Below, in pieces: positions 9,458 through 57,815 of a stretch of DNA of 64,000 bases (positions are counted from its first letter, which is position 1; each line of letters starts with the position of its first letter). The DNA is taken from NCBI RefSeq assembly GCF_900199405.1, contig NZ_LT963430.1, positions 3,131,605-3,195,604 on the forward strand, given 5' to 3'. Source of the DNA: Beduinella massiliensis (lineage in GTDB: Bacteria > Bacillota > Clostridia > Christensenellales > Aristaeellaceae). A program made the position numbers and the translations under genes. The notes below the pieces were generated by a model that had not been told where the DNA came from, searched no databases, and worked only from the letters and a program-made list of their open reading frames with translations.

Positions 9458-9460
9458 TCA

Positions 9461-43103: not shown

Positions 43104-43133
43104 CAATAGTCCATTCTTCCATTTATTAGGATA

Positions 43134-43229
43134 GTGAAGGCTGGTGAAAGCTGTACACTGTATCCTTATATACGAGGCTTTATTATCTCTATACGTGGGG
43201 GATAGGGTTTAGCTTTCACCTGCCTTCAC
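43134..43229 (+). repeat. 96-bp inverted element, copy A
   Basis: Matches the reverse complement of 57695-57790 at 93 of 96 positions. Its own ends are 19-bp inverted repeats (GTGAAGGCTGGTGAAAGCT, and its complement with one mismatch). About 58 bp of AT-rich unique sequence lie between. A related short copy follows at 43237-43300. Confidence 0.93.
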
Positions 43230-43368
43230 TTTTGTTATTTAAACATAACCGTATCCCACTCTTGCGCCTATGTGTACAGCCTTCACCAGCTTTCACTTTT
43301 TTCGCACGGTTTCTATCTTCCGCATCATTAGAGCGCAGTCGGGTCAAAAACTTTTTTGAAAAAAGGGG

Positions 43369-43397
43369 TTGACAAATTAAGTCGAACGACTTACAAT
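43369..43397 (+). promoter_or_regulatory. Promoter with operator palindrome in the spacer
   Basis: TTGACA (43369-43374), 17-nt spacer, TACAAT (43392-43397). The spacer holds TAAGTCG-AA-CGACTTA (43378-43393), an inverted repeat placed where a bound repressor blocks RNA polymerase. The likely binder is the XRE protein encoded next, or the phage repressor. Confidence 0.85.
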
Positions 43398-43474
43398 GTG
43401 ACCATGGCAAGCAAAAAGCCACCACGGCAGAGGCAACCTCAACTTCCCCATTGAAGACACCATGAAAGGTGGCG

Positions 43475-43672
43475 ATGTCTATCACTTTAAAGGAAGCTCT
43501 GCAAGCCAAAGGTTGGACGGTGCAGCGCTTAGCTGACGAAACCGGCATCAGCAAATTGACCTTAAATAACTACATGAACGGCCACCGCAGCCTACCACGT
43601 GCGGAAGCCGAGAAGGTTGTAAGGATTGCTGACGCTCTGCAAATCGACATCCACGAGCTTATTAAACGCTAA
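43475..43672 (+). CDS. XRE-family helix-turn-helix regulator
   Basis: 65 residues, nearly all HTH: ITLKEALQAKGWTVQRLADETGISKLTLNNYMNGHRSLPRAEAEKVVRIADALQIDIHELI. ATG 43475 has AAAGG upstream. It is the first gene of a three-gene plus-strand operon that runs against the surrounding late and early genes, and its promoter contains a palindrome it may bind, giving autoregulation. Confidence 0.85.
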   Translation: MSITLKEALQAKGWTVQRLADETGISKLTLNNYMNGHRSLPRAEAEKVVRIADALQIDIHELIKR

Positions 43673-43805
43673 AAAAATGCTGCGGCTGGCTACCACCCCA
43701 AACCGCAGCGCGCCCCCACAGTGCAAACAACGACGAAAGCACAGGCGGACAGCTATATTATACTATACTGCCGTCCACTTGTGCAACAAGAAAGGACGGC
43801 AATTT

Positions 43806-44042
43806 ATGTCTTATAACGGTTGGAAAAATCGTCAGACCTGGAACGTCTCCCTCTGGATCAACAACGATGAACCGCTCTATCGCCTGGCCTGCGAGTATGT
43901 GCGTCAGGCGAAGCGCGTCAGCTATGACGGGTTCGTCCGCTACGCCGGTCTGGGCGGTGAGCGCACCCCGGACAACATCAGTTATAGCGGCACCCGCCTT
44001 GACTACACCGAGCTGACCGACATGCTGAAGGAGCTGATTTGA
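43806..44042 (+). CDS. Small conserved phage protein (NGWKNRQTWN type)
   Basis: 78 residues starting MSYNGWKNRQTWNVSLWINNDEPLYRLACEYV. The opening motif N-G-W-K-N-R-x-T-W-N-V is seen in many short phage proteins of unknown role. AAAGGACGG precedes the ATG. It overlaps no gene and ends next to the following start (stop TGA/ATG). Confidence 0.75.
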   Translation: MSYNGWKNRQTWNVSLWINNDEPLYRLACEYVRQAKRVSYDGFVRYAGLGGERTPDNISYSGTRLDYTELTDMLKELI

Positions 44043-44333
44043 ATGACAAAGCTGAATAGATGGTATGACCTGGACGGCGTGTACACTCGCGACAGCTGGA
44101 CAATCCCTGATGAAGGCACAGAAATATGGTGCACAGGTTGGAAGCGCGGGCAGACGATCAGCCCTTATGGTGATGACTACCACGTGGTCGTCGGGTTTAG
44201 TGTGTACCACTGCGATCAGCTCATGGAGATCCTGAGCCAATGGGAGCGCGACGGTTACACGTGGGGCCTTGAAGGCGTGGCCGTCCAACGTGAACAGCAA
44301 ATCAACGGGTGCTGGACGCCGGTCCAGGTTTGA
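44043..44333 (+). CDS. Hypothetical phage protein
   Basis: 96 residues, rich in Trp and Tyr (RWYDLDGVYTRDSW, IWCTGWKRG, YHVVVGFSVYHCDQLMEIL). Starts immediately after the preceding stop, so probably translated by coupling. The fold is likely a small alpha/beta protein; I do not recognise a family. Ends in a hairpin shared with the convergent sigma-factor gene. Confidence 0.65.
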   Translation: MTKLNRWYDLDGVYTRDSWTIPDEGTEIWCTGWKRGQTISPYGDDYHVVVGFSVYHCDQLMEILSQWERDGYTWGLEGVAVQREQQINGCWTPVQV

Positions 44334-44336
44334 AAC

Positions 44337-44373
44337 AAAGCTCCGAGAGGTTTAACCCTCCCGGAGCTTTTCC
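44337..44373. terminator. Bidirectional terminator between convergent genes
   Basis: AAAGCTCCG (44337-44345) with CGGAGCTTT (44362-44370), then T on the plus strand and T (A-tract) on the minus. It includes the last codons of the sigma-factor gene. Confidence 0.75.
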
Positions 44374-44957
44374 ATTGCCCGCTTTTCGATCTGGCGCACG
44401 CGCTCGCGCGATAAGCCCAGCGCCTCGGCCACCTGGCGCAGTTTTTCGCCGTAGGCGAGGCGGTGCACGATCACATACCGCTCGCGGCTCTTAAGTTGCC
44501 CCAGCAGCCGCTCAACGTCTGCGCGCTGCTCTGCGCGCTCGAGCTCCTGATCCTCGCCGCCGAGCCGGTCGGCCATATACTCCGTATCCAGCGACAGCAG
44601 GCCTTCGCCCAGCGCCTGCATGGTACGCGCCTCGTCCGGCGCGATCTCTGCAGGTATGCCGTCGCCGTACAGCAGCGCCGAGTATGCCTGGCGCTTGTAC
44701 ACCGGTAGGTAGACCGACCCAAACTCCCGGCGGGCCCCGTGGCCCAGCGCGTTGCGTATGTACGGGTAAGCCATCGTGCCGAATTTGACCCCGCGCTCCG
44801 GGTCAAAGTCCCTCGCGGCCTTTACCAGCCCTTCCAGCCCGTAATGGTATAGCTCTTCTTGTTTTTCGGCCGGGGAGTGGCCGTAAAGTCGCCGTACGAC
44901 ATACCATACAAGTTTCGTATTGTCCAGTATCAGCCTTTCACGTTCTTCATCTGACAA
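44352..44957 (-). CDS. Phage-encoded sigma-70 family factor
   Basis: 201 residues. Region 2-like part: LILDNTKLVWYVVRRLYGHSPAEKQEELYHYGLEGLVKAARDFDPERGVKFGTMAYPYIRNAL (core binding and -10 recognition). Region 4: SRERYVIVHRLAYGEKLRQVAEALGLSRERVRQIEKRAMEKL (HTH for the -35). No region 1.1. The start codon is TTG at 44957 with GGAGG upstream, overlapping the helicase stop. As the last gene of the early operon and next to the late block, it probably switches RNA polymerase to the late genes; this is inference. Confidence 0.9.
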   Translation of the reverse strand: MSDEERERLILDNTKLVWYVVRRLYGHSPAEKQEELYHYGLEGLVKAARDFDPERGVKFGTMAYPYIRNALGHGARREFGSVYLPVYKRQAYSALLYGDGIPAEIAPDEARTMQALGEGLLSLDTEYMADRLGGEDQELERAEQRADVERLLGQLKSRERYVIVHRLAYGEKLRQVAEALGLSRERVRQIEKRAMEKLREG

Positions 44958-46287
44958 CCGCTTTCACCGCCTCCAGTAATTCGTCCTGCAGCCTCGCCTT
45001 GCCCGCCAGCACGCGCATGACGCGCTCATCGATCGTGTCACACGCCACAAGGTGATGTATGACCACACCGTGCTGCTGCCCCTGCCTGTACAGCCGCGCG
45101 TTGGCTTGCTGATACTTTTCGAGGCTCCAGGTGAGCCCAAACCACACGATTATATGCCCGCCTGCCTGCAGGTTGAGGCCGTGCCCCGCCGAATCAGGGT
45201 GCGCGAGCAACATCGGCACCTCTCCGCGGTTCCAGGCCTCGACATCCTCTGCGCGCCGCAGCACTCGCGCTTGCGGGAACGCCTTTTGCAGCCGTTCAAG
45301 GTCGTGCTTGTACGTGTAGTAGACCAACATGCTCTGCCCGCAGGCGGCTTCTACGACGTCTGCCAGGGCGTCGAGCTTTGCCCTGTGCAGCTCATGCCAG
45401 TCGCCGCCCGCGTCGTACACGGCCCCCTGCGCGAGCTGCAGAAGCTTGTTCGCGACCGCTGCGGCGGTAAGCGCTACGATCTCTTTGCCGTCCAACTGCA
45501 GCAGCATCGCGCGCTCCATCTCTTCGTATGCCGCCCGTGCAGCATCATCGAGCTCGACACTGATAACGTTGTCGATGCGCTCCGGCATCTGTAGATAGTC
45601 AACACTTTGCATACTTATACACAGATTATGCAACGCATCATAGATAGCCTCCTCGGCCCCCGGTTTGAGACGCCACTCGTAGACGACATGACCGTTGCGT
45701 TTGCCAGCGTCGAAATACCGATATCGATAGCTGCCCAGCGTCTTGCCCAGCGCCTCGCCGCGGTCGAGCAGGTACATCTGCGCCCATAGGTCGATCAGGC
45801 CGTTGGGTGCCGGTGTGCCCGTGAGCCCCACGATGCGCGTGATGCACCCCCGCACACGGCGGAGCGCCCGGAAGCGCCCCGCCCTCGCGCTCTTGAAGCT
45901 GCTCAGCTCGTCGATCACGACCATGTCAAACGGCCAGCACCGCCCCACTTCTTCCGCCAGCCATTCAATGTTCTCGCGATTGATTACGTACACGTCGGCG
46001 TCTCGCCTCAGCGCTGCCCGCCGCTCAGCCGCGCTGCCCAACACCCGCTCGACCCGCAGCCCCAGATCCCACTTGGCCGCTTCCTGCGCCCACACGGTTT
46101 GCGCTACGCGCAGCGGCGCGATGACGAGCACCCGGTCGACCTCATACCGATTGTTGATCAGCTCGTCGATGGCGTGCAGCGTGATCGCTGTTTTACCAAG
46201 GCCCATATCAAGTAGCAGACCGACCTCGTTTTGTTCGACAATCCTTTGGATCGCGTATCTCTGGTATTCGTGCGGCCTGAAAATCAT
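44947..46287 (-). CDS. SNF2-type DEAD/DEAH helicase
   Basis: 446 residues. Q-like motif HEYQRYAI, Walker A DMGLGKT (27-33), Walker B DELS (126-129), GLTGTPAPN motif III, and C-terminal motifs V/VI (HPDSAGHGLNLQAGGHIIVWFGLTWSLEKYQQANARLYRQGQ; consecutive). Phages of Bacillota often carry this small SNF2 protein next to VRR-NUC and primase genes; roles in replication or repair are assumed. Overlaps the methyltransferase gene by 4 nt. Confidence 0.93.
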   Translation of the reverse strand: MIFRPHEYQRYAIQRIVEQNEVGLLLDMGLGKTAITLHAIDELINNRYEVDRVLVIAPLRVAQTVWAQEAAKWDLGLRVERVLGSAAERRAALRRDADVYVINRENIEWLAEEVGRCWPFDMVVIDELSSFKSARAGRFRALRRVRGCITRIVGLTGTPAPNGLIDLWAQMYLLDRGEALGKTLGSYRYRYFDAGKRNGHVVYEWRLKPGAEEAIYDALHNLCISMQSVDYLQMPERIDNVISVELDDAARAAYEEMERAMLLQLDGKEIVALTAAAVANKLLQLAQGAVYDAGGDWHELHRAKLDALADVVEAACGQSMLVYYTYKHDLERLQKAFPQARVLRRAEDVEAWNRGEVPMLLAHPDSAGHGLNLQAGGHIIVWFGLTWSLEKYQQANARLYRQGQQHGVVIHHLVACDTIDERVMRVLAGKARLQDELLEAVKAVVR

Positions 46288-46778
46288 ACGACGCCACTCT
46301 CGTCAAACTTCATGAAGCAGCCCCAAAATGTGCCCATTTTTTTGCCGCTGTGATGCCCAAATAAGGGGCGCTGCCCGATAGCGCGCCACACTTTTTCAGC
46401 CGGAATCTGTACTTCAGACCACTTAAAAATCAGTACCCCTTCGGGTTTAAGCACTCGAAGACATTCGTGGAACCCACTACGAAGCGTATCTTCCCAGCCC
46501 TCCTCAAGTTTACCGTATTTTTTAAAGGTCCAAGACGTTTCACCAACACGTTCAAGATGTGGCGGATCAAATACGACAAGCCTAAAAGTTTTATCATCGA
46601 AGGGCAAATGCGTAAAGTCACATATTACGTCTGGCGCCACGACACACGGCCTTTCACTGCCTCTCCATACTCTTTCAAACGTCTCTTGACGTTTATCACA
46701 GTAGATCACTGCAGGGTGATGCTTGTCAAACCACATGGTACGGCTTCCGCAAGTGGCATCTAATATCAGTTTATCCAT
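46284..46778 (-). CDS. SAM-dependent methyltransferase, probably DNA
   Basis: 164 residues. The SAM site LILDATCGSRTMWFDK and the catalytic-like FDPPHL motif are visible, then a Rossmann end (LRVLKPEGVLIFKWSE). DPPH-type motifs occur in amino methyltransferases of DNA or other bases. The gene is less GC-rich than its neighbours, suggesting separate acquisition. Substrate not known; it could mark phage DNA against restriction. Confidence 0.8.
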   Translation of the reverse strand: MDKLILDATCGSRTMWFDKHHPAVIYCDKRQETFERVWRGSERPCVVAPDVICDFTHLPFDDKTFRLVVFDPPHLERVGETSWTFKKYGKLEEGWEDTLRSGFHECLRVLKPEGVLIFKWSEVQIPAEKVWRAIGQRPLFGHHSGKKMGTFWGCFMKFDESGVV

Positions 46779-47067
46779 CGCTTACGCTCCTTTTGAATAC
46801 GTCCTCCACGCAGGCCTTCGCTTCATCCCACCCGCTGACCTTACGTACGTCCATGCCGCGCCTGCGCATCTCCTCGATCTGCCACTTTTGCAGGTTGCTC
46901 AGGCGGCCCACTTCGGTCTTGAGCTCTACCCATACAACACGTCCATCGGGTGTGATGATGATGCGATCCGGCACGCCGGGATTGCCGGGGCTCACAAATT
47001 TGTAATATAGCCCGCCTCGCTTCTTTACAAGCTGGCCCATGCGGGCCTCGATCTGCGATTCGCGCAT
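46771..47067 (-). CDS. VRR-NUC domain nuclease
   Basis: 98 residues. The PD-(D/E)XK core is readable: E (in SQIEARMG), NPGVPDRIIITPDGRVVWVELKTE with Asp and the E-x-K pair. Single-domain VRR-NUC proteins are standard next to phage SNF2 helicases and primases, acting on branched or flap DNA. Start next to the primase stop (ATGs overlap). Confidence 0.92.
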   Translation of the reverse strand: MRESQIEARMGQLVKKRGGLYYKFVSPGNPGVPDRIIITPDGRVVWVELKTEVGRLSNLQKWQIEEMRRRGMDVRKVSGWDEAKACVEDVFKRSVSDG

Positions 47068-49496
47068 TATATCTCCTCCGTGACCTCAAGCCCCAGCCAC
47101 ACGTTGCCGATGTTGGTGTGCCGTCGCTCATACCCGCGTGCCTCCAGCGCCGCGGCGAAGTCGTTCGAGCGCCGCGGCATCTTCTCGCCGTTGCTCGTCG
47201 CCCACGTGACGTAACGGCCGTACAGCTCCGCGCTTTTCACCTTCGTGCCCTCGCGCGTGCACTCGCTCAAAAAGGCCTTAAGCCAGTCCTCGCGGTCGAG
47301 ATACGCAGCCGTGGATTGTTTGACGATTTCCGGCTTTTTGATCTTACAGCGATTCGCACAGAATCGCTTTGCGCCCTCGATCATCCAGGCCAATATCTGT
47401 GGCCCCTCCTGCGCGACCAGCTGCTCACCGAAATTGGTGACCATCTGCTCCGGCGCAATCGTCGTCTCAAACGGCGCGACCGCGATGCGCCTGCGTGTGC
47501 CGCCGTCGAGCGAGCGCAATTTAAACAGGTGATTGGTGTGCAGCACCAGCGTGTGCGTCGGTCTGAAGCTGAACGGGTCTCGACCCTTGGGGTTTGCATT
47601 GATCTCGTCGCGGCTCGTCAGGCGCTTCATGATGCTGACGCTCATGTTCGCGCCCTCGTCGGTCTCACCGGCAATGACAAGCCGCTTGCCGCGTACCTGT
47701 TCCAGCCCAAATGCTTCAGCCCCGTTGTTTTTCGCCACCAATAGCTCCTGCCGAATGCCGCCCGCATAGTCGCCCAGCACGTCTTTCCAGGCTCCAAACA
47801 AGGTTGACTTGCCGTTGCCGCCGGGCCCGTAGCTGATGACCATGCCCTCTTCGTACACCGCGCCGACCAGCGCCATGCCCGCAACGTCCTGCAGGTACCG
47901 CTCAAAATCCGTGTCAGCGTTTGTAATGCGGCGCAGAAAATCGCTGTACATCGGCGTCTCGCCGCCAGCGGGCGCAACCGCCGTACAGGCCGTGCACAGC
48001 GCGGCCGCGTCGTGCGAGCGCAGCTTGCCGGTTTTGAGGTCTACAATCCCGCCGGGCGTGTTCAAGGCCCACGGGTCGGCGTCGAAGTCCTCCAAGAGAT
48101 GGCTCTCCAGCATTGGTTTGGCAAGGTCGAGCGTCGCTTTGATCTTCGCAGCGCTGCGGCTCTTGCAGGCCCAGCTCAGCGCCGCTGCGGCGCGCTTGCG
48201 GTCGTCTGAGCCTTCCGGCGTCACGCGCAGCCAAGCCTGTGCGGCGCTCAGCAGCCCGTCGGTAAACCGCATCATGAGCAGCTTCGCGGCTCCCTCCGCG
48301 TCGGTCTGCCACCGCACGCCGTCCCAGGCTACCCAGCGCAGGTTGTCCTGCCAGCAAAGCACGCGCTTGTATGCGTCGGCAAAGGCCACGGCGTTGCCCT
48401 GGTCGGTGTAGTCTGTCTCGCTTTTAATCAGGCCCTCCGCCGCCTCGTTTTCAAAGTCTTCCAGCGCATTGGCCTTGATCCGCGCTTCGAGCTCTTCAAG
48501 CACCGCACTGTCTCCTTGGCACATCTCCTGCATCGCCATAAATGACGGCATCTCGTTCGCGGGCAGGTCTTTGTCCCCGTCGAGCTCGCCATACAGGTGC
48601 AGCCGCACCAGATCAAACGCGTTGCACAGCCTCCCGCCCGCGGGGTCGCTGTCGTGATGCGAATAGATAAATTTTCCGCCATCATACAGCACCGCACCTC
48701 CGTAGGCGCTGCCCGCGCGGTAGGTGTATCTGCCCTCCTGCGCTGCGTCATATATAGTAGAAAGAAATTTTGCAATCGCCGCTGGAACGTCGTACACCCG
48801 GCAGAACGCGCCGACGATGCCCGGCTTGTCCGTGGGCTCGCCCTGCGCCTTTGCGCGGGCGCGCAGCTTGTGTGTCTGGCGGCTGCTCGTGGGCCACTCT
48901 GCCGTGTCGTGCCAGTCGTTGTACTCGCTCAGCACCGCGTCCGGGTCGAGCCACGGCCCGTCCTGCGCCTCAAAGATGTACTCTGCGTCTTTGGGCATGC
49001 TGGGCCAGTACATCAGCCTGCCGGGCTGGTAGGTCGTATCGTCAAACGCTTCAATGTCCAGCCAGCTCGCGACCCGGCGAGCGATAGCCTCGTATTCGTC
49101 CGGCGCGACAGGGCGCGCCAGCGGGAACAAGAAGCGCAGGCGGGGCTTGTCCGGCGTGTGGCTGTGCGTTGCGTACACGCCGGCCGCAAGTCCGTACATC
49201 GACGTCCAGACGTCCCACAACTCCACCGTGCCGTAGTCCGCGTCCAGCGCGAGCAGGCAGCGGCTTTGCACGTTGCTCGATTTGCGCCGCCCGCCGTGCA
49301 CGTCGCCGCCCACGAATCCGCCGACGTCTTTGATCTCCGCGCGCTGTTGCGCTGGCATCGCCGCGAACTCCGCGGCCGTCTCCGTCGTGCGGATCGGCGT
49401 GCGCAAACGCTCTAACAAATCCGGCCAACTTAGCTGCCGCACTTGCCAGTGCGTATCATGCCGGCTCTTGCCTACAGAGATCGTGAGGTTATTCAT
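47067..49496 (-). CDS. Phage primase-helicase (P4/D5 type)
   Basis: 809 residues from ATG 49496 (GGAGGTGG upstream). The N-terminal part has primase-like segments (LLALDADYGTVELWDVW, THSHTPDKPRLRFLFPLARPV, as archaeo-eukaryotic primase); the C-terminal half is a D5/P4 superfamily 3 helicase with Walker A GPGGNGKST (~560) and HTLVLHTNHLFKLRSLDGGTRRRIAVAPFE. It unwinds the origin and lays primers for replication. The last gene of the polymerase group before VRR-NUC. Confidence 0.93.
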   Translation of the reverse strand: MNNLTISVGKSRHDTHWQVRQLSWPDLLERLRTPIRTTETAAEFAAMPAQQRAEIKDVGGFVGGDVHGGRRKSSNVQSRCLLALDADYGTVELWDVWTSMYGLAAGVYATHSHTPDKPRLRFLFPLARPVAPDEYEAIARRVASWLDIEAFDDTTYQPGRLMYWPSMPKDAEYIFEAQDGPWLDPDAVLSEYNDWHDTAEWPTSSRQTHKLRARAKAQGEPTDKPGIVGAFCRVYDVPAAIAKFLSTIYDAAQEGRYTYRAGSAYGGAVLYDGGKFIYSHHDSDPAGGRLCNAFDLVRLHLYGELDGDKDLPANEMPSFMAMQEMCQGDSAVLEELEARIKANALEDFENEAAEGLIKSETDYTDQGNAVAFADAYKRVLCWQDNLRWVAWDGVRWQTDAEGAAKLLMMRFTDGLLSAAQAWLRVTPEGSDDRKRAAAALSWACKSRSAAKIKATLDLAKPMLESHLLEDFDADPWALNTPGGIVDLKTGKLRSHDAAALCTACTAVAPAGGETPMYSDFLRRITNADTDFERYLQDVAGMALVGAVYEEGMVISYGPGGNGKSTLFGAWKDVLGDYAGGIRQELLVAKNNGAEAFGLEQVRGKRLVIAGETDEGANMSVSIMKRLTSRDEINANPKGRDPFSFRPTHTLVLHTNHLFKLRSLDGGTRRRIAVAPFETTIAPEQMVTNFGEQLVAQEGPQILAWMIEGAKRFCANRCKIKKPEIVKQSTAAYLDREDWLKAFLSECTREGTKVKSAELYGRYVTWATSNGEKMPRRSNDFAAALEARGYERRHTNIGNVWLGLEVTEEI

Positions 49497-49653
49497 GCGC
49501 CACCACCTCCGCGCCGCAGGCCGCATAGCCTGCCAGATCCACGAAACTATCCCGCGTGCCCTTTCCGGTCTTGATGCGTGCGATCTTGAGCAGCGCCTGC
49601 TCTGCCGCATCGCGCACTAGATGTGGCTCTTTGCCGATCCAAAGCATGTCCAC
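49489..49653 (-). CDS. Short DUF6378-like protein
   Basis: 54 residues from GTG 49653 (AAAGGA upstream), MDMLWIGKEPHLVRDAAEQALLKIARIKTGKGTRDSFVDLAGYAACGAEVV. It resembles the C-terminal part of DUF6378 proteins, which are longer in other phages, so this may be a trimmed form. It begins 4 nt after the polymerase stop and overlaps the primase start by 8 nt, tightly fitted between the two. Confidence 0.6.
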   Translation of the reverse strand: MDMLWIGKEPHLVRDAAEQALLKIARIKTGKGTRDSFVDLAGYAACGAEVVAHE

Positions 49654-49657
49654 AATA

Positions 49658-51601
49658 TCAATCCTTTTTATAAAATTTGGTCACGTACCCATCCCCGCGC
49701 AACACCAAACCGGGTGCCCACGGCAGAGGCCGCGCCATGATCTCGCAGATATCCCGTAGCGCTGTATCAGCTTCCGCCTCCGGCACCTCGACGACCATTT
49801 CGTCATGCACGTGCATGACGATCTCCGGGTAGTGTTGCTCAACGGCCAGCATCGCGTCGCGCAGGCAGTCACGGGCGATGGCCTGGACGACGTTCTCTAC
49901 AAACTTCGGCCCGTAGCTCTCGACGCGGCTCCACCGCCCCGCTTCATAGCTTTGATAGCTCACGCTCTCCCCGCCAAACTTGTTTGTCGTCATCTGCGGC
50001 TCGAAATACCGCAGACTCCGACCGCTGGGAAGGTGGATGTGCAGCAGCCTTTTTGTCGTACGCTCAACGCTCAACCCGTGTGGCAGCTTGTAGGTACCGC
50101 CGTGCTTCACGGCGTTAATCACTGCGGAGCCGACACGCTCCCACAGCGCCACGATGTGCGGGCTGGCCTCGCGCCATGCCGTCACCAGCGGCTGTAGCTC
50201 ACTCTCTTCCAGGCCCATCTCTAGCGCGCCCATGTTGGTCAGCGCCCCCACGCCGCCGCCGTAGCCCAGGGCCAATTCAGCAATCTTGCCCTTCTGCCGC
50301 AAGTGAGCATTCTGGCCGTGCTTTTCGACCGGCACCTTAAACATCTGGCTGGCTGACGCGCAGTATATGTCGCCGCCTTTCGCAAAGACCTCCTGCCGCC
50401 ACTTCTCGTCGGCCAGCCATGCTACAACCCGCGCCTCGATGGCGCTAAAATCAGCTACTGCAAATGTGTGCCCCGGCTTGGCCACAAAGGCCGTGCGGAT
50501 CAACTCGGAGAGCGTCGACGGCACATTGCCGTACAGCATTTCCAGACCCTCACGATCTCCGCTCTTCGCGATCTCTCGCGCGGCTTCCAGGTCTTCCAGG
50601 TGATTTTGGGGTAAATTTTGAACTTGCACGAGCCTGCCTGCCCATCGGCCCGTTCGATTTGCGCCGTAGAATTGGAACAACCCGTGCACTCGACCGTCGG
50701 AACAGACGCTGCGCTCGATGGCCTCGTACTTCGCCATGCTCGTTTTTCCCAGCTCCTGCCGGATCGCCAGCGCCCGCGCCTTTTCGCCGGTCGCCGTTTC
50801 GCGCATCGCCGCAACGTCTTTCTTCGTCAGGCTATCCGTGCCAAAGTACCGTTTAAGCTGCGCCACGCTGTTTGGGTTGTCCAGTCCGGTCAGCTGCCGG
50901 GCTTCGTCCGTCAGCAGGCCGTTGTGCTCGTTGCTCATCGCAATCGCGGCGCGGACAAATTCCATGTCAACGCCGACCCCGCGCGCGTTGATTCGTTGAT
51001 CCATCTCCCATGCGGCTTGCTCTTTCGGCGGCAGCGGATAGGCCGATAGCCGCTTACGCAGCTCGCGCTCCACGACGACATCCTGCTGGTTATAATCAAT
51101 AAACGCGCGCCATTTCGCCGGGTCGTGCTCCGGCAGGTTTCGCGCGTGCCCTCCGCTGGTCTGCGTCGGCTTGCAAGGCTTGCTGAAATAATCGATCAGC
51201 CTCTTGCCCTCGTCCATCTTCTCTTCGGTCAGACCCAGCGCTTTGACTGCGTCGCCCAGCTTACGCGGCAGGCCCAGCGTCGCGGCCAGCACCGCCGTAC
51301 ATCTCCACTGCCTCTCATCCATAGGCCGGCCAAACCAGCGGCCCAGACAGGTCATCTCGAAGGCTGCGTTGTAGGCGGTTTTAAGCACATCAGGGGCCCA
51401 CAGCGCGCCTTGGAATGCGCGCAGCTCCTCGTCATTCAGGCAGTTCTTCGTGCAGTCCACGACCCGTACCGGCCCGTCGTCAAACGCATAACCTATGAGT
51501 AAAATCCGAAAATCAGGCGAATCGACGTAGCGATGTACGCCGCAGCGCGTCAGGTCAACGTCGCTGTACGTCTCAATGTCAATGCTGAGCGTTTTCGCCA
51601 T
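49658..51601 (-). CDS. polA: Phage DNA polymerase I (family A) with exonuclease
   Basis: 647 residues from ATG 51601 (GGAGG upstream; the long upstream frame overlaps the preceding gene). An N-terminal DnaQ-like 3'-5' exonuclease starts at LSIDIETYS, with VVDC and the NQQD segment; the polymerase domain has motif A DFSAIEARVVAWLADE, the K/Y helix (HLRQKGKIAELALGYGGG) and motif C MHVHDEMVVEVPE. It replicates the phage genome with the adjacent primase-helicase. The small size matches the phage form. Confidence 0.95.
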   Translation of the reverse strand: MAKTLSIDIETYSDVDLTRCGVHRYVDSPDFRILLIGYAFDDGPVRVVDCTKNCLNDEELRAFQGALWAPDVLKTAYNAAFEMTCLGRWFGRPMDERQWRCTAVLAATLGLPRKLGDAVKALGLTEEKMDEGKRLIDYFSKPCKPTQTSGGHARNLPEHDPAKWRAFIDYNQQDVVVERELRKRLSAYPLPPKEQAAWEMDQRINARGVGVDMEFVRAAIAMSNEHNGLLTDEARQLTGLDNPNSVAQLKRYFGTDSLTKKDVAAMRETATGEKARALAIRQELGKTSMAKYEAIERSVCSDGRVHGLFQFYGANRTGRWAGRLVQVQNLPQNHLEDLEAAREIAKSGDREGLEMLYGNVPSTLSELIRTAFVAKPGHTFAVADFSAIEARVVAWLADEKWRQEVFAKGGDIYCASASQMFKVPVEKHGQNAHLRQKGKIAELALGYGGGVGALTNMGALEMGLEESELQPLVTAWREASPHIVALWERVGSAVINAVKHGGTYKLPHGLSVERTTKRLLHIHLPSGRSLRYFEPQMTTNKFGGESVSYQSYEAGRWSRVESYGPKFVENVVQAIARDCLRDAMLAVEQHYPEIVMHVHDEMVVEVPEAEADTALRDICEIMARPLPWAPGLVLRGDGYVTKFYKKD

Positions 51602-52595
51602 TCTTCTTTTCCTCCAGCGCTGGGTTCCAGGCAACGCCGATGTAATCCAGAACCGCGCCCCAGCCTTGATCGTACATGAGGTAGTTCCAGTATTTCGGGT
51701 TATCCTCGTATAAACGATCGTATCGATGCGGACGCTTCTCGATGTGGATTCCAAAGCCGCACATTGTACAGCCTGTCCGCTGAGCCCTGGTCGTCCGGAG
51801 GGTTCCATCTGTGTCGCGAACGATCTCGCCATAGATTTCAGGCACGGGGACATGTAGGTCAAGCGCCAGTTGCAACAGGTCTTGCCTCATAAAAATCGCA
51901 AACGGGCATGAGCGTGTAACTGATTTGCCATAGTAGTTGCAGCCATTTTTCATCAACCCCTTTTCACGCTGACCGCCCTCGGAGGCCATAAGACCCATGT
52001 ACGGCGAGCGACCAGCTGCCTTTGCATAATCGGAGCAGGGCTTTTCCTTCATCCAATAGCAGCATTCCGCCGAAACCCTGAAAGGTGCAGCTTTCATCGG
52101 AAAGTCCGGCCTATGGTCCTGATAGTTTCCGCCAAATAGTTTCAGCCACTTATCGGGTAACTTTAAGCGGTTGGAATGCCCAAAGTTTCCTTGCGCTCCC
52201 ATGTCGCCGGTAATCAGCGCGTGAATGAAAGTCTGCTTAGGGTTGTCCGCTTTTTGCAAAGCCTCGATTTTTCGCGCCTTTTCCTTGCTGATAATCGGAT
52301 ACCCGTACTCCTCGACAACCTGCTTCTGTGTCTTGATCGGATGGAGCACTTGAACGCCAAGTTCGCGGTGAATCCTTTGAATGGATTTATCTTCGAGGCT
52401 GGAAACCGATACCGCTGGCACATCGATGCCGATAGAGCGCAAGAACAGCAATAATGTGATGCTGTCGAGGCCTCCGACCGAAATATAGCACATGCCGTCG
52501 AGCTGATTGTAGAACTCCCACGCCTTGATCTCCGCGTGTGCGACCTTGGCCGCATAGGGTAGCTTTTGCTTTTGCATGAACTCTTGTGGTGTCAA
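51579..52595 (-). CDS. PAPS-reductase-family protein (PP-loop ATPase-like)
   Basis: 338 residues from a TTG start at 52595 (GGAGG 8 nt upstream). The N-terminal ATP pyrophosphatase-like loop reads SVGGLDSITLL, where the family normally has SGGKDS, so the lysine is replaced. Cysteines at ECCYWMKEKPC and TGCTMCGFG could hold an iron-sulfur cluster. CysH/DndC-like proteins reduce or sulfurate; phage versions are unexplained. It lies between the ssDNA-binding gene and polymerase. The gene has a lower GC content than its neighbours. Overlaps polA by 23 nt. Confidence 0.85.
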   Translation of the reverse strand: MTPQEFMQKQKLPYAAKVAHAEIKAWEFYNQLDGMCYISVGGLDSITLLLFLRSIGIDVPAVSVSSLEDKSIQRIHRELGVQVLHPIKTQKQVVEEYGYPIISKEKARKIEALQKADNPKQTFIHALITGDMGAQGNFGHSNRLKLPDKWLKLFGGNYQDHRPDFPMKAAPFRVSAECCYWMKEKPCSDYAKAAGRSPYMGLMASEGGQREKGLMKNGCNYYGKSVTRSCPFAIFMRQDLLQLALDLHVPVPEIYGEIVRDTDGTLRTTRAQRTGCTMCGFGIHIEKRPHRYDRLYEDNPKYWNYLMYDQGWGAVLDYIGVAWNPALEEKKNGENAQH

Positions 52596-52654
52596 TGTAA
52601 ATCCTCCTACGCAAAGAGGCGGCGCGGCCTCTACCGCACCGCCTCTACCGTCTC

Positions 52655-53212
52655 TTACAGTCCAAGGTCGTCTTCTTCACCCTCGAAATCGTCCGCGAAG
52701 TCGTCTTCCGCGCGGCTGAACCCGCCCAGTGGCTCGCCGTCTGCAAGCTTTTGCAGGTTATTCAATCCGGCCGCGATACCCTTGTTACCACTCTGGTTAT
52801 AGGCATAGAAGTTGAGCGAAGCCCTGCCGTAGCACCCCGAATACAGCTCCGTCTCATCCAGGATCTCGACTTTGCTGCGGTCGATTACGCCGGGCGCGCG
52901 CTTGCTGCTGGCGTTGAGCACGTAGCAGCCCTTGCATTCCGGGCCATATTCGCCACCGTTGGGCTTCTCTCCGTCGCCGTCGTGCAGCGGCGACTTGAGC
53001 GACGTCGGCACCTTGCCACCGAATATTGCGGCGCTGGAGAGCCGGGCTGCCTCGCAGGCCGCCTTGATCTTACCTAGCGTCGTCTTGTCCGTCTTGGGGA
53101 TCAACAGGCATACGCTGTACTTGGGCTCCTGGCCTTCCGCGCTCGCACGGGGCTTAAAAGCATTGAGATAACTGAAACGCACCTTACCGGTGATAACCTT
53201 AGTAGCTTCCAT
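52655..53212 (-). CDS. DUF2815 ssDNA-binding protein
   Basis: 185 residues with an OB-fold pattern (VITGKVRFSYLNAFKPR, KYSVCLLIPKTDKTTLGKIKAA, YSGCYGRASLNFYAYNQSGNKGIAAGLNNLQKLADGEPLGG; consecutive motifs) and a strongly acidic tail (DFEGEEDDLGL). This is the usual DUF2815 form, which acts like T7 gp2.5 as single-stranded DNA-binding protein. Part of the replication cluster with DUF2800 and polA. Confidence 0.92.
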   Translation of the reverse strand: MEATKVITGKVRFSYLNAFKPRASAEGQEPKYSVCLLIPKTDKTTLGKIKAACEAARLSSAAIFGGKVPTSLKSPLHDGDGEKPNGGEYGPECKGCYVLNASSKRAPGVIDRSKVEILDETELYSGCYGRASLNFYAYNQSGNKGIAAGLNNLQKLADGEPLGGFSRAEDDFADDFEGEEDDLGL

Positions 53213-53248
53213 AATTCCACATCTCCCATATTTCGATCCTCACCGCTG

Positions 53249-54400
53249 TCAGGCGGTGACGTCGTCGTTAAAGTCCTGCTTTGCACTGTTCCATTCCGGC
53301 CGCTTGTCCGTCTCCGGCACAAGCGTCGGTTTGCCCTCCGGTTTGACGATCAGGTCGCCCAGAAGGCTTGCCAAAGCCTTCTTCCCGACCAACTCTTCGA
53401 GGTCTGTTAGACCCTTGATGCGCATAACGTCGGTCGTCTTGTACCCGCTTTCCCTCAAAGCGAGCACGGCCAGCTCTTCGTTGGAGATCTTCCGGGTCGA
53501 CCGGCCGGCCACGAGCTTCCAGCCGTCGAAATGCTCTCCGTTCTCAATCGCCTGCTGTGCGGCGTAGTCTTTGACCGATTTCGCCCATGCGGTCAGCTCG
53601 TCCACGCGGGCTAAGATTTCGCCAATCTCAGCGTTGCTGAGTAGCGGTGCATCGGCAAATTCGTACTTTGCGAGCTCCAGCTGCTTCTCTGCCCGTGCGC
53701 GGCATGTCGCCGCCACGCGGCAAAACCGACAATGTTCGCCAGCTTTAAACTCGCCCTTGCCCTCTGCGGCTTGCTGTGCGGTCGTGAGTATCCGGTTGCC
53801 CCATTCCAGCAGCGCTTCGACGTGCAGGGTCTCCATCGTGACGCTGTCAAGCCGCGGCTGGAAGATGTGCAGACGCACCATGTCAATCTCATACAGGCTG
53901 CTGAACTCTGCCAACGCACCCAAGCCATACAGCCGCAGCTGCGGGTTGTTTTCAGCGCTGACCGGCACACCTTTGCCGTATTTAAAGTCCACTACGTCCA
54001 TCACACCGTCGGATATGATGATGACGTCACCCGTACCAAAGCCGTCCGGCACCCAGGCCCCGAAGTCCAGTCGCTGCTCCGTCAGCAGCAGCGCGTCAGG
54101 GCTGCGCCGCTGCGCTGCGTCGTATAGCTCGATTACGTAGTCTACAAAACCGTCGGTGTGCTCCTCCATCGCTTTGCGGTACAGTTCATGTCTGGTCAAC
54201 TTCGCAGGCGTGCGCGGCTTCTTGCCCTTCAAGTAGGCATTGATTTTTGCTTCACAGATGCTGTGCGCCAGCGTCCCCTCCGCCGCAGCCTCGCTCGTGC
54301 CGCCCTCGGGGGCCTGCGCGCATAGCTGCGCGCTGGGCGGACAGGCCAGCCACCGGTGCGCGCTGCTCGCGCTGAGCAGGGCATGTCCTACTGCCGGCAT
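53249..54400 (-). CDS. DUF2800 nuclease-like protein (PD-(D/E)XK, Cas4/RecB-like)
   Basis: 383 residues from ATG 54400 (GGAAAGGTGG upstream). Typical start: LLSASSAHRWLACPPSAQL and AAAEGTLAHSICE; nuclease core VPDGFGTGDVIII..MDVVDFKYGKG (Asp and D-x-K); C-terminal cysteines CRFCRVAATCRA for an iron-sulfur site. Found next to DUF2815 in many phages; supposed to process DNA ends in recombination-linked replication. Confidence 0.9.
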   Translation of the reverse strand: MPAVGHALLSASSAHRWLACPPSAQLCAQAPEGGTSEAAAEGTLAHSICEAKINAYLKGKKPRTPAKLTRHELYRKAMEEHTDGFVDYVIELYDAAQRRSPDALLLTEQRLDFGAWVPDGFGTGDVIIISDGVMDVVDFKYGKGVPVSAENNPQLRLYGLGALAEFSSLYEIDMVRLHIFQPRLDSVTMETLHVEALLEWGNRILTTAQQAAEGKGEFKAGEHCRFCRVAATCRARAEKQLELAKYEFADAPLLSNAEIGEILARVDELTAWAKSVKDYAAQQAIENGEHFDGWKLVAGRSTRKISNEELAVLALRESGYKTTDVMRIKGLTDLEELVGKKALASLLGDLIVKPEGKPTLVPETDKRPEWNSAKQDFNDDVTA

Positions 54401-54495
54401 TTTTCCCACCTTTCCAGCAGCCGTGCTTGGGCCGCCTCTACGTTCTCCCGGTCGATCAACTGATAGATACACAGAGCGAGCAGCAGCAAACTCAT
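54388..54495 (-). CDS. 35-residue hydrophobic peptide
   Basis: MSLLLLALCIYQLIDRENVEAAQARLLERWEKC, a short membrane-like N terminus and a charged helix. GGAGG lies 8 nt upstream and the ATG overlaps the previous stop (ATGA), while its end overlaps the DUF2800 start by 13 nt. Possibly only a coupling peptide; may also be a real small membrane protein. Confidence 0.5.
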   Translation of the reverse strand: MSLLLLALCIYQLIDRENVEAAQARLLERWEKCRQ

Positions 54496-54824
54496 GCCAT
54501 CGCCTCCTGGGCAAGCTGTACCGCGCGCGCCAGCTCCTCGGGGCTCTTCAGATCGGTAAACGACTTGACACCCATCTGATCCAACACGCCCCGCACCGCC
54601 TTTGCGCCCTTCGCAGCGCGCAGGTCGTTCAGGGCTGCGCGGGCTTCGACCATGGAGATCACAGTCGGATTGCTGGTCGGCTTTTCCACCTTGGCGGGTG
54701 CCTCTGCTTTGGCGGGCGCCGCCATCGGCGCGTACCCGCCGTTGGGGTGCAGTGCCGGAATCCCGGATAATGCTTGCGCCAGACGATCCAGCGCGGGGCA
54801 ATCGATTCTAACGGTGATTTCCAT
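54492..54824 (-). CDS. Hypothetical replication-module protein
   Basis: 110 residues. A short N-terminal strand (MEITVRIDCPALDRLAQAL), a Pro/Ala/Lys linker (AAPAKAEAPAKVEKP) and a helical C-terminal part (VEARAALNDLRAAKGAKAVRGVLDQMGVKSFTDLKSPEELARAV; consecutive helices). Proteins of this layout are common just upstream of DUF2800 in phages of Clostridia. Function unknown. GAGAGGAG precedes the ATG. Confidence 0.7.
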   Translation of the reverse strand: MEITVRIDCPALDRLAQALSGIPALHPNGGYAPMAAPAKAEAPAKVEKPTSNPTVISMVEARAALNDLRAAKGAKAVRGVLDQMGVKSFTDLKSPEELARAVQLAQEAMA

Positions 54825-55005
54825 TGATAATCTCCTCTCGTTGTGCTACAATAAGGTCGCATGTTTTTGTCTGCCGCTGGTCTGAGGTTGCCGCCTCGCC
54901 AGTGGCTTTTTTACGTCCAAAGGCGTTTTGCATATCTTCGTTTGCCCATCCCCCCTCTCGCATTGCCTGTAGCATCCCAAGAATGTCAGCCGGTGTGCCG
55001 TGCAT
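54808..55005 (-). CDS. Small hypothetical protein
   Basis: 65 residues from ATG 55005, MHGTPADILGMLQAMREGGWANEDMQNAFGRKKATGEA. GGGGAGG lies 8 nt upstream. It overlaps the XRE gene before it (20 nt) and the next gene (17 nt). Mostly helical, not recognised. Confidence 0.6.
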   Translation of the reverse strand: MHGTPADILGMLQAMREGGWANEDMQNAFGRKKATGEAATSDQRQTKTCDLIVAQREEIINGNHR

Positions 55006-55246
55006 AGGCGTCGGCCTCCCCGCCGATAATCGCAAGCAGCCGGCGCAGCTCAGCGAGCGTGAACGTTTCCGGTCGCTTACAGCGGTTGTACATTGTCGCC
55101 CGGCTCATGCGCGCGAGCGTAGCAAGCTCTTCCATCTTTAGGTTTTTCATCGCCAAGTACCGGGCTATCTCACCGCGAAGCTCTGCGTCCTGTGATTTCC
55201 ATACCTGCGCGAGCTTCTGGGATTTCGTAATCAATGTTTTCGGCAT
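54986..55246 (-). CDS. XRE-like helix-turn-helix protein
   Basis: 86 residues from ATG 55246 (AAGGAGATG upstream). LRGEIARYLAMKNLKMEELATLARMSRATMYNRCKRPETFTLAELRRLLAIIG is an HTH of the XRE kind. One of four HTH regulators in the early region; may tune early gene expression. Overlaps the gene upstream by 77 nt in another frame. Confidence 0.78.
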   Translation of the reverse strand: MPKTLITKSQKLAQVWKSQDAELRGEIARYLAMKNLKMEELATLARMSRATMYNRCKRPETFTLAELRRLLAIIGGEADAYARHTG

Positions 55247-55484
55247 CGGTATCATCTCCTTGTACTAAATCGAGCAGGTTTCTCTCTGCGACGGAAAGGA
55301 GGTCGACCATATCATTGAGATAATCCTCGATAATCCCGATCCGCACAGCAATGTCGTTCGGTATCGCATGGCCGGATTCTGAACGCATGATCATATCCAT
55401 GGTTAGATCGGCCATCGTCACCCTTGCGCAGTTGAGGGCCCCGGTCGCATGAGATACGTTGTCGTAGGAATCACATAGTTTCAT
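55170..55484 (-). CDS. Hypothetical early protein
   Basis: 104 residues from ATG 55484 (GGAGG 9 nt upstream), MKLCDSYDNVSHATGALNCARVTMADLTMDMI and a helical stretch VRIGIIEDYLNDMVDLLSVAERNLLDLVQG. The C-terminal ~26 codons overlap the XRE gene in a different frame. The overlap is long, but both genes have good start sites. Not recognised. Confidence 0.6.
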   Translation of the reverse strand: MKLCDSYDNVSHATGALNCARVTMADLTMDMIMRSESGHAIPNDIAVRIGIIEDYLNDMVDLLSVAERNLLDLVQGDDTDAENIDYEIPEARAGMEITGRRASR

Positions 55485-56241
55485 CAATCTTTGCCTCCAT
55501 GATTTCTTTTTTCCTGGTACCGAAATACTCGCGCCCCATGGGAGTGACAATCAGCTGCACGTGCTCAAATCCATCATCGTTTGTGGCCCGCAGCCGGAAG
55601 TAATCTTTTTTCGGCCCCAGGTATGGGGCATACGCTCTTAGGTCTTTACTTCCCCGCTTGCGGTATAGGAAGCGCCTTTGAAGCAGCCATCCTACAAGTT
55701 GATGCTCCGGGATGTCTAACACTTGTGCGGTATCCCGTATACCAGTCATCAGTCGTTTTGCCTCTTGGCCTCGATGGTACGCGACGCGGTGCTGCAGAAA
55801 CTCCAACCGTGCGAGCATCCCGTCGTACTTCAGCGCAAGGTGTAGGTTCTCGTCCTTAATGTCTTCCAGGGCTGCTTTCAGCTTCTCGTGATCCGCGAGC
55901 AACTCTTGTGTGATATACAAGCCGTGCCGCCGGATCGACGGTAAGACTTCGTGCGTGACCCACCGACGGAAGGCTTTAGCCTCTGGTTTGCGGCTGCCGA
56001 GCACGAGCGTGTACAGGCCTGGTTCGTTGACGATGGAGACGTTTGGGTTGCCGCGATTTCCGTCACTTAAAGTGACGGTATTCTTTTCATCGTCATCTAA
56101 CCTTGTCAGCGCTTTCCGGCTGTTCCCAAGCTCCAGGGCTCGGCACACATCCACCGCTACGAACCATGCTTCGCCGTCTTTGTCTATGGCACGGATCTGG
56201 CCAAAGTCCGGGTTTATGAAGACTTGAAGATCAGTCACCAT
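55471..56241 (-). CDS. Phage antirepressor (BRO-N plus C-terminal Ant domain)
   Basis: 256 residues from ATG 56241 (GTGGAGG upstream). BRO-N domain: FGQIRAIDKDGEAWFVAVDVCRALELGNSRKALTRLDDDEK, then VSIVNEPGLYTLVLGSRKPEAKAFRRWVTHEVLPSIRRHGLY; a coiled link; and a C-terminal domain with IPEHQLVGWLLQRRFLYRKRGSKDLRAY as in KilA-C/Ant proteins. Such proteins counter the CI repressor in induction. Second gene of the early operon. Confidence 0.92.
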   Translation of the reverse strand: MVTDLQVFINPDFGQIRAIDKDGEAWFVAVDVCRALELGNSRKALTRLDDDEKNTVTLSDGNRGNPNVSIVNEPGLYTLVLGSRKPEAKAFRRWVTHEVLPSIRRHGLYITQELLADHEKLKAALEDIKDENLHLALKYDGMLARLEFLQHRVAYHRGQEAKRLMTGIRDTAQVLDIPEHQLVGWLLQRRFLYRKRGSKDLRAYAPYLGPKKDYFRLRATNDDGFEHVQLIVTPMGREYFGTRKKEIMEAKIDETM

Positions 56242-56431
56242 TCTCTTCCTCCACAAAGTAGCTGATGCTCACGCCAAAGTAATCGGCGATTCGCTTGAGC
56301 TTATCGAGCTTAGGACTGCTCCGACCGTTTTTCCACCCGGAAAACGTACTCGTTGAAATTCCAGTTGCGTGAGCCACACGGTAAGCGGTTACCCCGTGGC
56401 TTTCCAGCAATTTCTCGAATTTGCGATACAC
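56231..56431 (-). CDS. Cro-like XRE repressor
   Basis: 66 residues from GTG 56431, with AAAAGGAGGGG 5-13 nt upstream; the ATG at 56449 lies on that site itself. MYRKFEKLLESHGVTAYRVAHATGISTSTFSGWKNGRSSPKLDKLKRIADYFGVSISYF is close to the N terminus of the divergent CI protein (MYERFQQLLDERGITAYRVAKDLG), so both probably bind the same operators. First gene of the minus-strand early operon. Confidence 0.88.
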   Translation of the reverse strand: MYRKFEKLLESHGVTAYRVAHATGISTSTFSGWKNGRSSPKLDKLKRIADYFGVSISYFVEEENGD

Positions 56432-56503
56432 GATGCCCCTCCTTTTCATTGCAATTAGCTCGGAAATATGATATAATTTTGTAAAAGCACAAAATCCATA
56501 GCT

Positions 56504-56598
56504 TCGAATCTTAATTCGATTTGTTTTCTGTACTATGCAAAAATAATAGCACAAGTTTCAAAGCTAGTCAATGATTTTAGCTCTTTTTTCTGTACTAT
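56504..56598. promoter_or_regulatory. Lysogeny control region: early promoter and operators
   Basis: Minus-strand promoter TTGACT (56571-56566), 17-nt spacer, TATTAT (56548-56543). TTTTCTGTACTAT occurs twice in direct orientation (56524-56536 and 56586-56598), one on each side of the promoter, and TCGAAT-N4-ATTCGA at 56504-56519 is a dyad in the early leader. The GTG of CI lies 25 nt after the right copy. These are the probable CI/Cro operators. Confidence 0.78.
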
Positions 56599-56622
56599 TT
56601 TAAAAAAGGGGGAAATTTTTCT

Positions 56623-57327
56623 GTGTATGAGCGTTTTCAACAGCTGTTAGATGAACGCGGTATTACTGCATATCGTGTTGCCAAAGACCTTGGTTTTGGT
56701 ACTTCAGCCATGACTGAGTGGAAAAAAGGACGTAGCACTCCCAAAAATGATAAACTAGCGAAGATCGCCGATTATTTTGGCGTTTCGCTAGATTGGCTTA
56801 TAGGAAGAACAGACGTGCGCATTCCACAAGGATTCGTAGAATACTTTGATGGTGACCGCAACACGGCGGAATCTGCTTTTCATGCTGCTGAGTGGACTGA
56901 GATGATGTACGGGCCCTTAAGCCCGTCATCCATTCGTATCCCAGTGCTCGGTTCTGTCCCCGCCGGCCTTCCACTTGAGGCGATCGAGGACATTATAGAC
57001 TGGGAGGAGCTTCCGGCTTCTATGGCCTCTGGAGGGCGTGAATACTTTGGTCTTCAGGTCAAAGGCAATAGCATGTATCCACAGTATCTGGACGGCGATG
57101 TGCTTATTGTTCGCAAGCAGCCCATTTGTGATAGTGGTGATGACGCGATTGTATTAGTGGATGGCAGTGACGCAGTGTTCAAGCGTGTACGACTAAACGG
57201 CGGCATGATGACACTCCAGCCATTGAATCCTGAATATGAGCCCCGCACGTTTACAGCCCAAGAAATCAAGAATCTTCCCGTTCAAATTCTCGGGGTCGTA
57301 GTCGAATTGCGGAGGAAGACCAAATGA
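56623..57327 (+). CDS. CI-like repressor with S24 peptidase domain
   Basis: 234 residues from GTG 56623. N-terminal XRE HTH (residues 1-60: ITAYRVAKDLGFGTSAMTEWKKGRSTP) and a LexA/CI-like C-terminal domain: VPAGLPLEAIED (cleavage-site region near Ala-Gly), Ser150 in GNSMYPQ and Lys187 in AVFKRV, the catalytic dyad. It should maintain lysogeny and self-cleave on SOS induction by RecA. Divergent from the Cro-like gene; stop overlaps the membrane-protein start. Confidence 0.94.
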   Translation: MYERFQQLLDERGITAYRVAKDLGFGTSAMTEWKKGRSTPKNDKLAKIADYFGVSLDWLIGRTDVRIPQGFVEYFDGDRNTAESAFHAAEWTEMMYGPLSPSSIRIPVLGSVPAGLPLEAIEDIIDWEELPASMASGGREYFGLQVKGNSMYPQYLDGDVLIVRKQPICDSGDDAIVLVDGSDAVFKRVRLNGGMMTLQPLNPEYEPRTFTAQEIKNLPVQILGVVVELRRKTK

Positions 57328-57686
57328 AAAAGTATTATGCACGTCGCGCCATCCTTGCCATTTTAGTCTTTGTCACGTTCTTATCTCGCACCAACGGATT
57401 TTCGACTATATTGAAGGCGGAAGATGCGCAATCAGTGTTCTTCACGCTGTTAGGCGGCATAATTTGGCCTGTGACTATGTTTGTTGCTGCCAGCATTCTG
57501 GCAATCGTCTTGGTGTTTGCAATAAAATATGCTCATACTTTTATTGATTGGCTATGGGGCTTCCTTGCTTTTCGAGAACCGGAATCCGCTCAAAACTGCT
57601 CATGGGACGTGCTTACTGGTGTATTCGATGGTCTCGCGCTCGTGTTTTTTCTAGTTCTACTGGCATTTCCAAATATTATATTTTAA
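57324..57686 (+). CDS. Lysogeny-expressed membrane protein
   Basis: 120 residues with about three membrane segments (ILAILVFVTFLSR, WPVTMFVAASILAIVLVFAI, VFDGLALVFFLVLLAFPNIIF). Translated together with the repressor (ATGA overlap), hence expressed in the lysogen. Small membrane proteins at this place in prophages often give superinfection exclusion; here that is inference only. Not recognised. Confidence 0.75.
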   Translation: MKKYYARRAILAILVFVTFLSRTNGFSTILKAEDAQSVFFTLLGGIIWPVTMFVAASILAIVLVFAIKYAHTFIDWLWGFLAFREPESAQNCSWDVLTGVFDGLALVFFLVLLAFPNIIF

Positions 57687-57694
57687 TAGTTTGT

Positions 57695-57790
57695 GTGAAG
57701 GCTGGTGAAAGCTAAACCCTATCCCCCACGTATAGAGATAATAAAGTCTCGTATATAAGGATATAGTGTACAGCTTTCACCAGCCTTCAC
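57695..57790 (-). repeat. 96-bp inverted element, copy B
   Basis: Matches copy A (43134-43229) in inverted orientation with three mismatches. The 19-bp ends GTGAAGGCTGGTGAAAGCT / AGCTTTCACCAGCCTTCAC are perfect here. It lies 8 nt after the membrane-protein stop and 25 nt before the metallo-beta-lactamase-fold gene. Confidence 0.93.
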
Positions 57791-57815
57791 TTTTACAAAA
57801 AAAGGAGGCGTGTGT

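Follow-up and report, generated by a model that had tools for sequence, protein, structure and literature searches.

Two inverted 96-bp palindromic elements bracketing the early region of a Beduinella massiliensis prophage are probable replication-origin modules for its D5-type primase-helicase

What role could be played by two nearly identical 96-bp elements that stand at either end of the early region of a prophage? The question is raised by a 64,000-nucleotide stretch of Beduinella massiliensis (contig NZ_LT963430.1, positions 3,131,605 to 3,195,604; hereafter the window, numbered from its first letter). Element A (43134-43229, minus strand) lies between the gene of the terminase small subunit (TerS, up to 42619) and the first early gene (43469), and element B (57695-57790, plus strand) lies 3′ of the repressor and transmembrane-protein genes, before a gene for a metallo-beta-lactamase-fold protein. 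From their anatomy, the position of similar palindromes in relatives and the literature, we read both as replication-origin modules for the prophage's own D5/superfamily 3 (SF3) primase-helicase (47067-49610, minus strand), with a probability of about 0.72. We are more confident that the element is an origin module bound by D5 than that both copies are active, the latter being evenly balanced.

Each element consists of two tandem 10-bp iterons (GTGAARGCTG), a 58-bp core and the same iterons inverted. The initial annotation had described A and B as inverted copies with 3 mismatches over 96 positions, with 19-bp terminal inverted repeats, that enclose the early, replication and repressor genes. 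Its coordinates and counts are exact: 93 of 96 positions are identical and the differences, in B orientation, are at positions 9 (A/T), 53 (C/T) and 70 (C/T). The arms of 19 bp pair at 19 of 19 positions in B (left arm 57695-57713, plus strand, a perfect inverted match to the right arm 57772-57790, minus strand) and at 18 of 19 in A, and the enclosed genes span 43469-57686. What had been overlooked are the tandem iterons in the arms, where they appear as GGTGAARG pointing toward the core, an extra tandem pair beside A (GTGAAAGCTGGTGAAGGCT, 43278-43296, minus strand, then GTACAC, as at one arm of A) and the palindromic nature of each element. As A and B are each partly palindromic over the full length (58 and 64 of 96 positions), the word 'inverted' describes mainly the core. 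Folded as single strands, A and B score better (z -7.6 and -10.0) than every one of 200 dinucleotide shuffles. The AT content of the cores is 60 and 64%, as opposed to 39% for the prophage, and the kilobase around each element has 52%. GC skew does not change at A, and its sign change at B coincides with a change of gene direction. It may be noted that to the left of A (43058-43103) a perfect inverted repeat of 14 bp encloses an 18-nt loop.

The origin design itself is known from pRN1, phage-inducible chromosomal islands (PICIs) and phage P4. According to the part of PMC4234260 drawn upon here, the pRN1 origin is a stem-loop of ~100 bp (predicted stem of 21 nt and loop of 58 nt) located 54 bp 3′ of the primase/SF3 gene, which is needed for replication and still works when relocated. 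A and B are like it in size, in stem and loop (19 and 58 nt here) and in the SF3-helicase initiator proposed for them (ORF904 of pRN1 has primase, SF3 and winged-helix parts). pRN1 is, however, an archaeal plasmid with a single site near the gene, described as lacking iterons, whereas A and B are two, distant and have clear tandem iterons. PICI origins have two iteron sets either side of an AT-rich region (PMC6092414), and such sites are recognised by Rep of the Staphylococcus aureus pathogenicity islands (SaPIs) and by Cch2 via their C-terminal domains (PMC7581432), as given in the sections of these two papers used here. In the pri-rep-ori arrangement of the SaPIs the initiator is of D5 type as here, but the origin lies immediately 3′ of rep and belongs to satellites, while here a prophage that encodes a terminase itself has two distant copies. 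A and B have the PICI/pRN1-type layout (two inverted iteron sets around an AT-richer core of ~60 bp) but are not immediately 3′ of the initiator gene. The D5 protein (847 aa) matches D5_N and DUF5906 above the cut-off and Pox_D5 below it. An AlphaFold2 model of its residues 560-847 (predicted local distance difference test score, pLDDT, 86.3) matches SaPI5 Rep (7ola_C; Z 22.8, root-mean-square deviation 4.2, 254 aligned), the PrimPol of African swine fever virus (Z 25.6) and vaccinia D5 (Z 19.7). It is the C-terminal third of D5 that resembles SaPI5 Rep in fold, and this part may bind DNA.

Similar palindromes are found beside the D5 gene in relatives. We scored inverted repeats (loop length 30-100) in 89 loci having D5 homologues, taken from viral contigs and from genomes of the class and family; 6 of these had no usable stop codon, leaving 83. 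With a score threshold and a window around the stop that were chosen after a first scan, 27 of the 83 loci had a repeat scoring at least 13 between -100 and +350 bp from the D5 stop (37 kb searched), while only 20 such repeats were found in 1.30 Mb elsewhere, the density at the stop being ~47 times higher. An earlier overlapping set of 51 loci, from which L105, L109 and L111 were excluded since they had been selected by the palindrome, had such a repeat downstream of D5 in 10 of 51 cases and upstream in none of 49, and none was seen in 408 shuffles; the shuffles (as well as the permutations used below) ignore relatedness. Random windows of this set had a palindrome in 8 of 306 cases, some of which may overlap the D5 palindromes. 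With the threshold lowered to a score of at least 10 the contrast shrinks: 27 of the 51 downstream regions, 4 of the 49 upstream regions and 23 of the 408 shuffles then have a repeat. Many of the D5-adjacent palindromes have arms made of two tandem repeats of ~9-11 bp (for example GGTGGAGGTCGGTGGAGGTC), with iterons that differ from GTGAARGCT. In L015 (gene order PolA-D5-VRR-SNF2-TerL) and L071 (D5-VRR-SNF2-TerL), whose gene order matches that of the window's prophage, the palindrome lies in the D5-VRR gap, directly 3′ of D5, and no second copy of the arm (up to 3 mismatches) was found in the whole records beyond its own two arms, the reversed control giving one match in L071. In the window, no palindrome of this kind was found 3′ of the D5 gene, whose stop codon overlaps the next start (TAATG) and so leaves no room for one directly 3′. 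Because L015 and L071 have a single palindrome 3′ of D5 and, among 37 elements, a distant second pair is seen only in the window, we infer that the origin was displaced from the initiator gene and duplicated in this lineage.

The palindromes at the D5 stops also bear on transcription control, the main rival, whereby a phage regulator would bind the iterons and co-regulate the late operon to the left of A together with the metallo-beta-lactamase-fold and integrase genes to the right of B. It would explain why A, read on the minus strand, and B, read on the plus strand, are oriented alike to the genes they face. A gene with a good ribosome-binding sequence (possible starts at 57810 and 57816) also begins shortly after B, a sigma factor, a repressor and an antirepressor are encoded by the prophage itself, and two weak promoter-like matches (9/12) overlap the left arm of B. 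Yet both of these matches point left, and the strong match near A (43369-43397, 11/12) is outside A and points right. No sigma-70-like match points from A to the late genes or from B to the metallo-beta-lactamase-fold gene, in a scan to which promoters of the phage sigma factor would be invisible. Taken with the presence of similar palindromes beside D5 stops in 27 of 83 loci, this leaves transcription control an unlikely explanation.

For the cores, we took the word ATAGAG from the three GTGAA-type elements, as it is common to A and B (43187-43192, minus strand, and 57732-57737, plus strand), the element of a second prophage and locus L009. After dropping 4 near-identical palindromes of the 27, ATAGAG was present in 8 of 23 distinct D5-adjacent cores, as against a mean of 0.8 and a maximum of 4 in 500 shuffles. 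A motif picked after looking, TATAGRR, was present in 15 of the 23 (shuffle mean 1.3). The palindromes of L015 (~6377-6475) and L071 (~6494-6589) have closely similar cores and unlike iteron arms, apparently an iteron swap around a kept core, and on the basis of this one pair cores may change slowly and iterons quickly. For 27 D5 proteins (351 pairs), iteron similarity is related to C-terminal identity with helicase identity allowed for (partial r 0.27, reached by 0 of 2000 permutations; converse partial -0.08), relatedness being only partly controlled in this comparison.

The second prophage, in the same genome, also encodes a D5 protein (55% identical over residues 40-846) and has a TerL 89% identical to that of the window. 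Its palindrome (L152:16857-16952, at G000:C3 ~700,860) has the iterons GTGAAGGCT/GTGAACGCT inverted around a different core and adjoins its repressor, a position like that of B. In L009, whose record ends before its replication genes, four iteron pairs lie just upstream of the gene in TerS position, like A. These two cases lend partial support to the use of the end positions in other phages, and no second phage with elements at both end positions was found. A 200-bp imperfect palindrome of different sequence is present in the second prophage directly upstream of TerS (L153:10398-10595), in the position equivalent to A. The proximity to TerS of A and of the L009 iteron pairs would suit a packaging (pac/cos-like) site to which the terminase small subunit binds. 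This reading is weakened because the TerS-position proteins of the window and L009 are without similarity although their iterons are alike; B is moreover 15 kb from the terminase, and a packaging role is highly improbable.

A and B are the only copies found in their own 4.18-Mb genome (assembly 97.85% complete), where the 19-bp arm, allowing up to 2 mismatches, has 5 sites, all at A and B (reversed control 0). They are therefore not a common intergenic repeat of the host without link to the phage. The search for the element elsewhere, which had been proposed along with a search for target duplications, gave no match to the 96 bp in the remaining 59 genomes of the 60 covered, and none to the 131-bp stretch 43118-43248 among 50,697 phage records at blastn sensitivity. 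The strict palindrome among 300 family genomes was only the window's own, the iteron motif (up to 1 mismatch) among 80 terminase-relative loci was present only in L032, which is the same record as L009, and a scan for the direct-repeat pattern found L009 alone. Of the interpretations offered initially, our analysis favours sites recognised by a phage protein, for instance in replication, while a miniature inverted-repeat transposable element (MITE) that hopped twice is unsupported. The terminal inverted repeats and the two near-identical copies outside recognised genes are what such an element would show, but there is no target duplication at A or B and just two copies exist, both in one prophage, with none in 59 relatives. 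The arms are, besides, tandem iterons, and the second prophage has such iterons around another core; insertion of a mobile element is thus the merest possibility. Inversion was the other suggestion, with recombination between A and B flipping the 14.5-kb early region. Two inverted copies, 96 bp long and 97% identical, could serve for this, but 96 bp is short for homologous recombination, and the sole recombinase among 20 open reading frames (ORFs) scanned with Pfam in 42-60 kb, the part of the window covered, is the integrase. The probable arm repeats of the integrase, a 21-bp sequence (TGCAACACGAAATGCAACACG) at 16971 and 60061, differ from A and B, and we regard inversion as very unlikely. 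An integrase-arm role for the iterons themselves had been prompted by iteron-like repeats in L003, upstream of a gene which by eye we take to encode an integrase, and was dropped since the same arm repeats differ from the A/B iterons.

A looser GTGAA palindrome was found at 12 loci in GTDB genomes and 6 in IMG/VR, where a reversed-letter control palindrome gave 0 viral loci versus 6. Of the 17 genomes or records with the loose palindrome, 4 contain D5_N, and in three of these (L105, L109, L111) the genome's only D5_N match is a gene ending at the palindrome. Altogether 5 of the 12 GTDB loci (L105, L109, L110, L111 and L112, the last with a primase Pfam match below the cut-off) have the palindrome at, overlapping or inside the 3′ end of a primase gene. 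Among the viral loci, it is at the 3′ end of a primase gene or 242 bp past it in L115 and L116, and at the 3′ end of a gene without family match in L113, L114 and L117 (the L113 copy was scanned). This gene follows a primase gene in L113 and L117, and the sequence of L114 ends too early to tell. The sixth viral locus is L009, with its replication genes cut off. In the Tannerellaceae contigs L101, L102 and L107, nested GTGAAGG-type palindromes are seen, apparently beside ordinary chromosomal genes.

Several results weigh against an origin role. A lies 3.8 kb and B 8.1 kb from D5, while published origins adjoin the initiator gene, and their cores (60 and 64% AT) are just moderately richer in AT than the local kilobase (52%). 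The palindrome threshold is missed at 56 of the 83 D5 loci, and among 37 elements a second distant pair was found only in the window, the search being made mostly in pieces of up to 21 kb; the same search gave one weak extra arm match 1.3 kb off in L172 and extra iterons within ~100 bp in several others. GTGAA-type pairs are absent from 37 of 40 family loci (L193-L232), the 4 scattered sites being in L199, L221 and L224. L193, the closest listed C-terminal relative outside this genome (53%), has no iteron palindrome. In the loose scan no primase gene was recognised at 7 of the 12 GTDB loci (L101-L104 and L106-L108), six of them judged by a D5_N genome search and the first letters of the ORFs and L106 by two scanned ORFs without a Pfam match; six of the seven are from Bacteroidales, Spirosoma or Cytophagales. 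In L103, the fourth genome with D5_N, the match is ~660 kb from the palindrome. Finally, the repeats in crr of phage P4 point away from the core, opposite to the polarity in A and B.

Other repeats were seen in two of the family loci. In L193, scattered and tandem GGCGAACAGA-like repeats that resemble P4 iterons lie 3′ of the close D5 relative (8922-9774), and 8 of 13 matches over 10.9 kb to this motif, picked after looking, fall in that region. L224 has three tandem GTGAA repeats at 10-bp spacing (659-684), ~2.4 kb from the D5 gene and with no inverted partner reported.

If A and B are origin modules, D5 would bind their iterons via its C-terminal domain, assemble on the two arms, melt the core and prime theta replication there. 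For the second copy two roles can be envisaged. It may be a partner site that acts jointly with the first, as in P4 ori/crr. Our statements on P4 rest on the annotation of its record and PMC4234260. In the record, type 1 repeats (GGTGAACA-like) are annotated in both crr (4291-4590) and ori (9086-9809), which flank the genes alpha to ORF88. Like A and B, crr and ori are two separated iteron regions, one on each side of replication genes; alpha has D5_N, DUF5906 and Pox_D5, the iteron word GGTGAA recurs and crr has inverted pairs around a core. P4 differs in its GGTGAACA-like iterons, in the unlike layouts of ori and crr and in the Toprim primase of alpha, which is 23% identical to the window's D5 in a local alignment of 214 columns. 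Alternatively, the second copy might later block forks and switch replication to concatemers, as proposed for oriL and oriR of SPP1. These are 12 kb apart, and according to the part of PMC3485210 used here the initiator bound at oriR is believed to block replication forks and to initiate the synthesis of concatemers. Going by that part of the paper, SPP1 is likewise a tailed phage with two sites for one origin-binding protein and a proposed theta-to-sigma switch, but in SPP1 G38P acts alongside a helicase and a helicase loader that are distinct from it, and the likeness is one of layout. The single-stranded DNA-binding (SSB)/annealing protein and exonuclease encoded in the early operon would fit the SPP1-type view.

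A 27-bp direct repeat of the 3′ end of a tRNA-Pro (CGG) is present at 16821-16847 and 60129-60155, probably attL and attR, which would set the limits of a prophage of ~43.3 kb; the 21-bp repeats mentioned above are probably the integrase arm sites. To the left of A the first late gene is that of the terminase small subunit (42125-42619, minus strand). Also in the late region, a long array with a 63-bp period (22712-23974) is perhaps a repetitive tail protein gene. Between A and B, the early operon has on the minus strand a phage-encoded sigma factor at its 3′ end (44352-44957), the D5 gene, a family A DNA polymerase (49658-51862) and the Gp2.5-like SSB/annealing protein with the exonuclease (52655-54514); a CI/LexA-type repressor with a helix-turn-helix (HTH) and Peptidase_S24 (56623-57327) is on the plus strand. 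A Cro-like HTH gene, a DNA methyltransferase, a VRR-NUC nuclease, a protein like 3′-phosphoadenosine-5′-phosphosulfate reductase, an antirepressor and, presumably, an SNF2-type helicase are bracketed as well. Between B and the integrase lies the metallo-beta-lactamase-fold gene (57816-58805), whose product has an Ada zinc-binding match at the C terminus, and then DUF3006.

What appears to be new is a bracketing pair of such modules detached from the initiator gene in a temperate phage, for which we found no precedent in a search of mainly open-licence literature that was aimed only in small part at paired origins. We put forward, tentatively and as somewhat less than an even bet, that this phage detached a D5-type origin and duplicated it, with one copy at each end of the early region, one initiator acting at two sites 14.5 kb apart to control the switch from circle-to-circle replication to concatemers. 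More generally, and with the same reserve, many D5 phages and prophages would have PICI/pRN1-style palindromic origins with fast-changing iterons and a slow TATAG-type core, such that origins could be read from sequence. The similar palindrome in 27 of 83 loci of relatives, together with the two here, points to an origin design common to satellites and full phages. If this is true, one could locate the origins of uncultured phages from their sequence, and the joint change of the initiator's C-terminal domain and the iterons becomes testable. The double bracketing layout also bears on why some phages, such as P4 and SPP1, have two initiator-binding regions.

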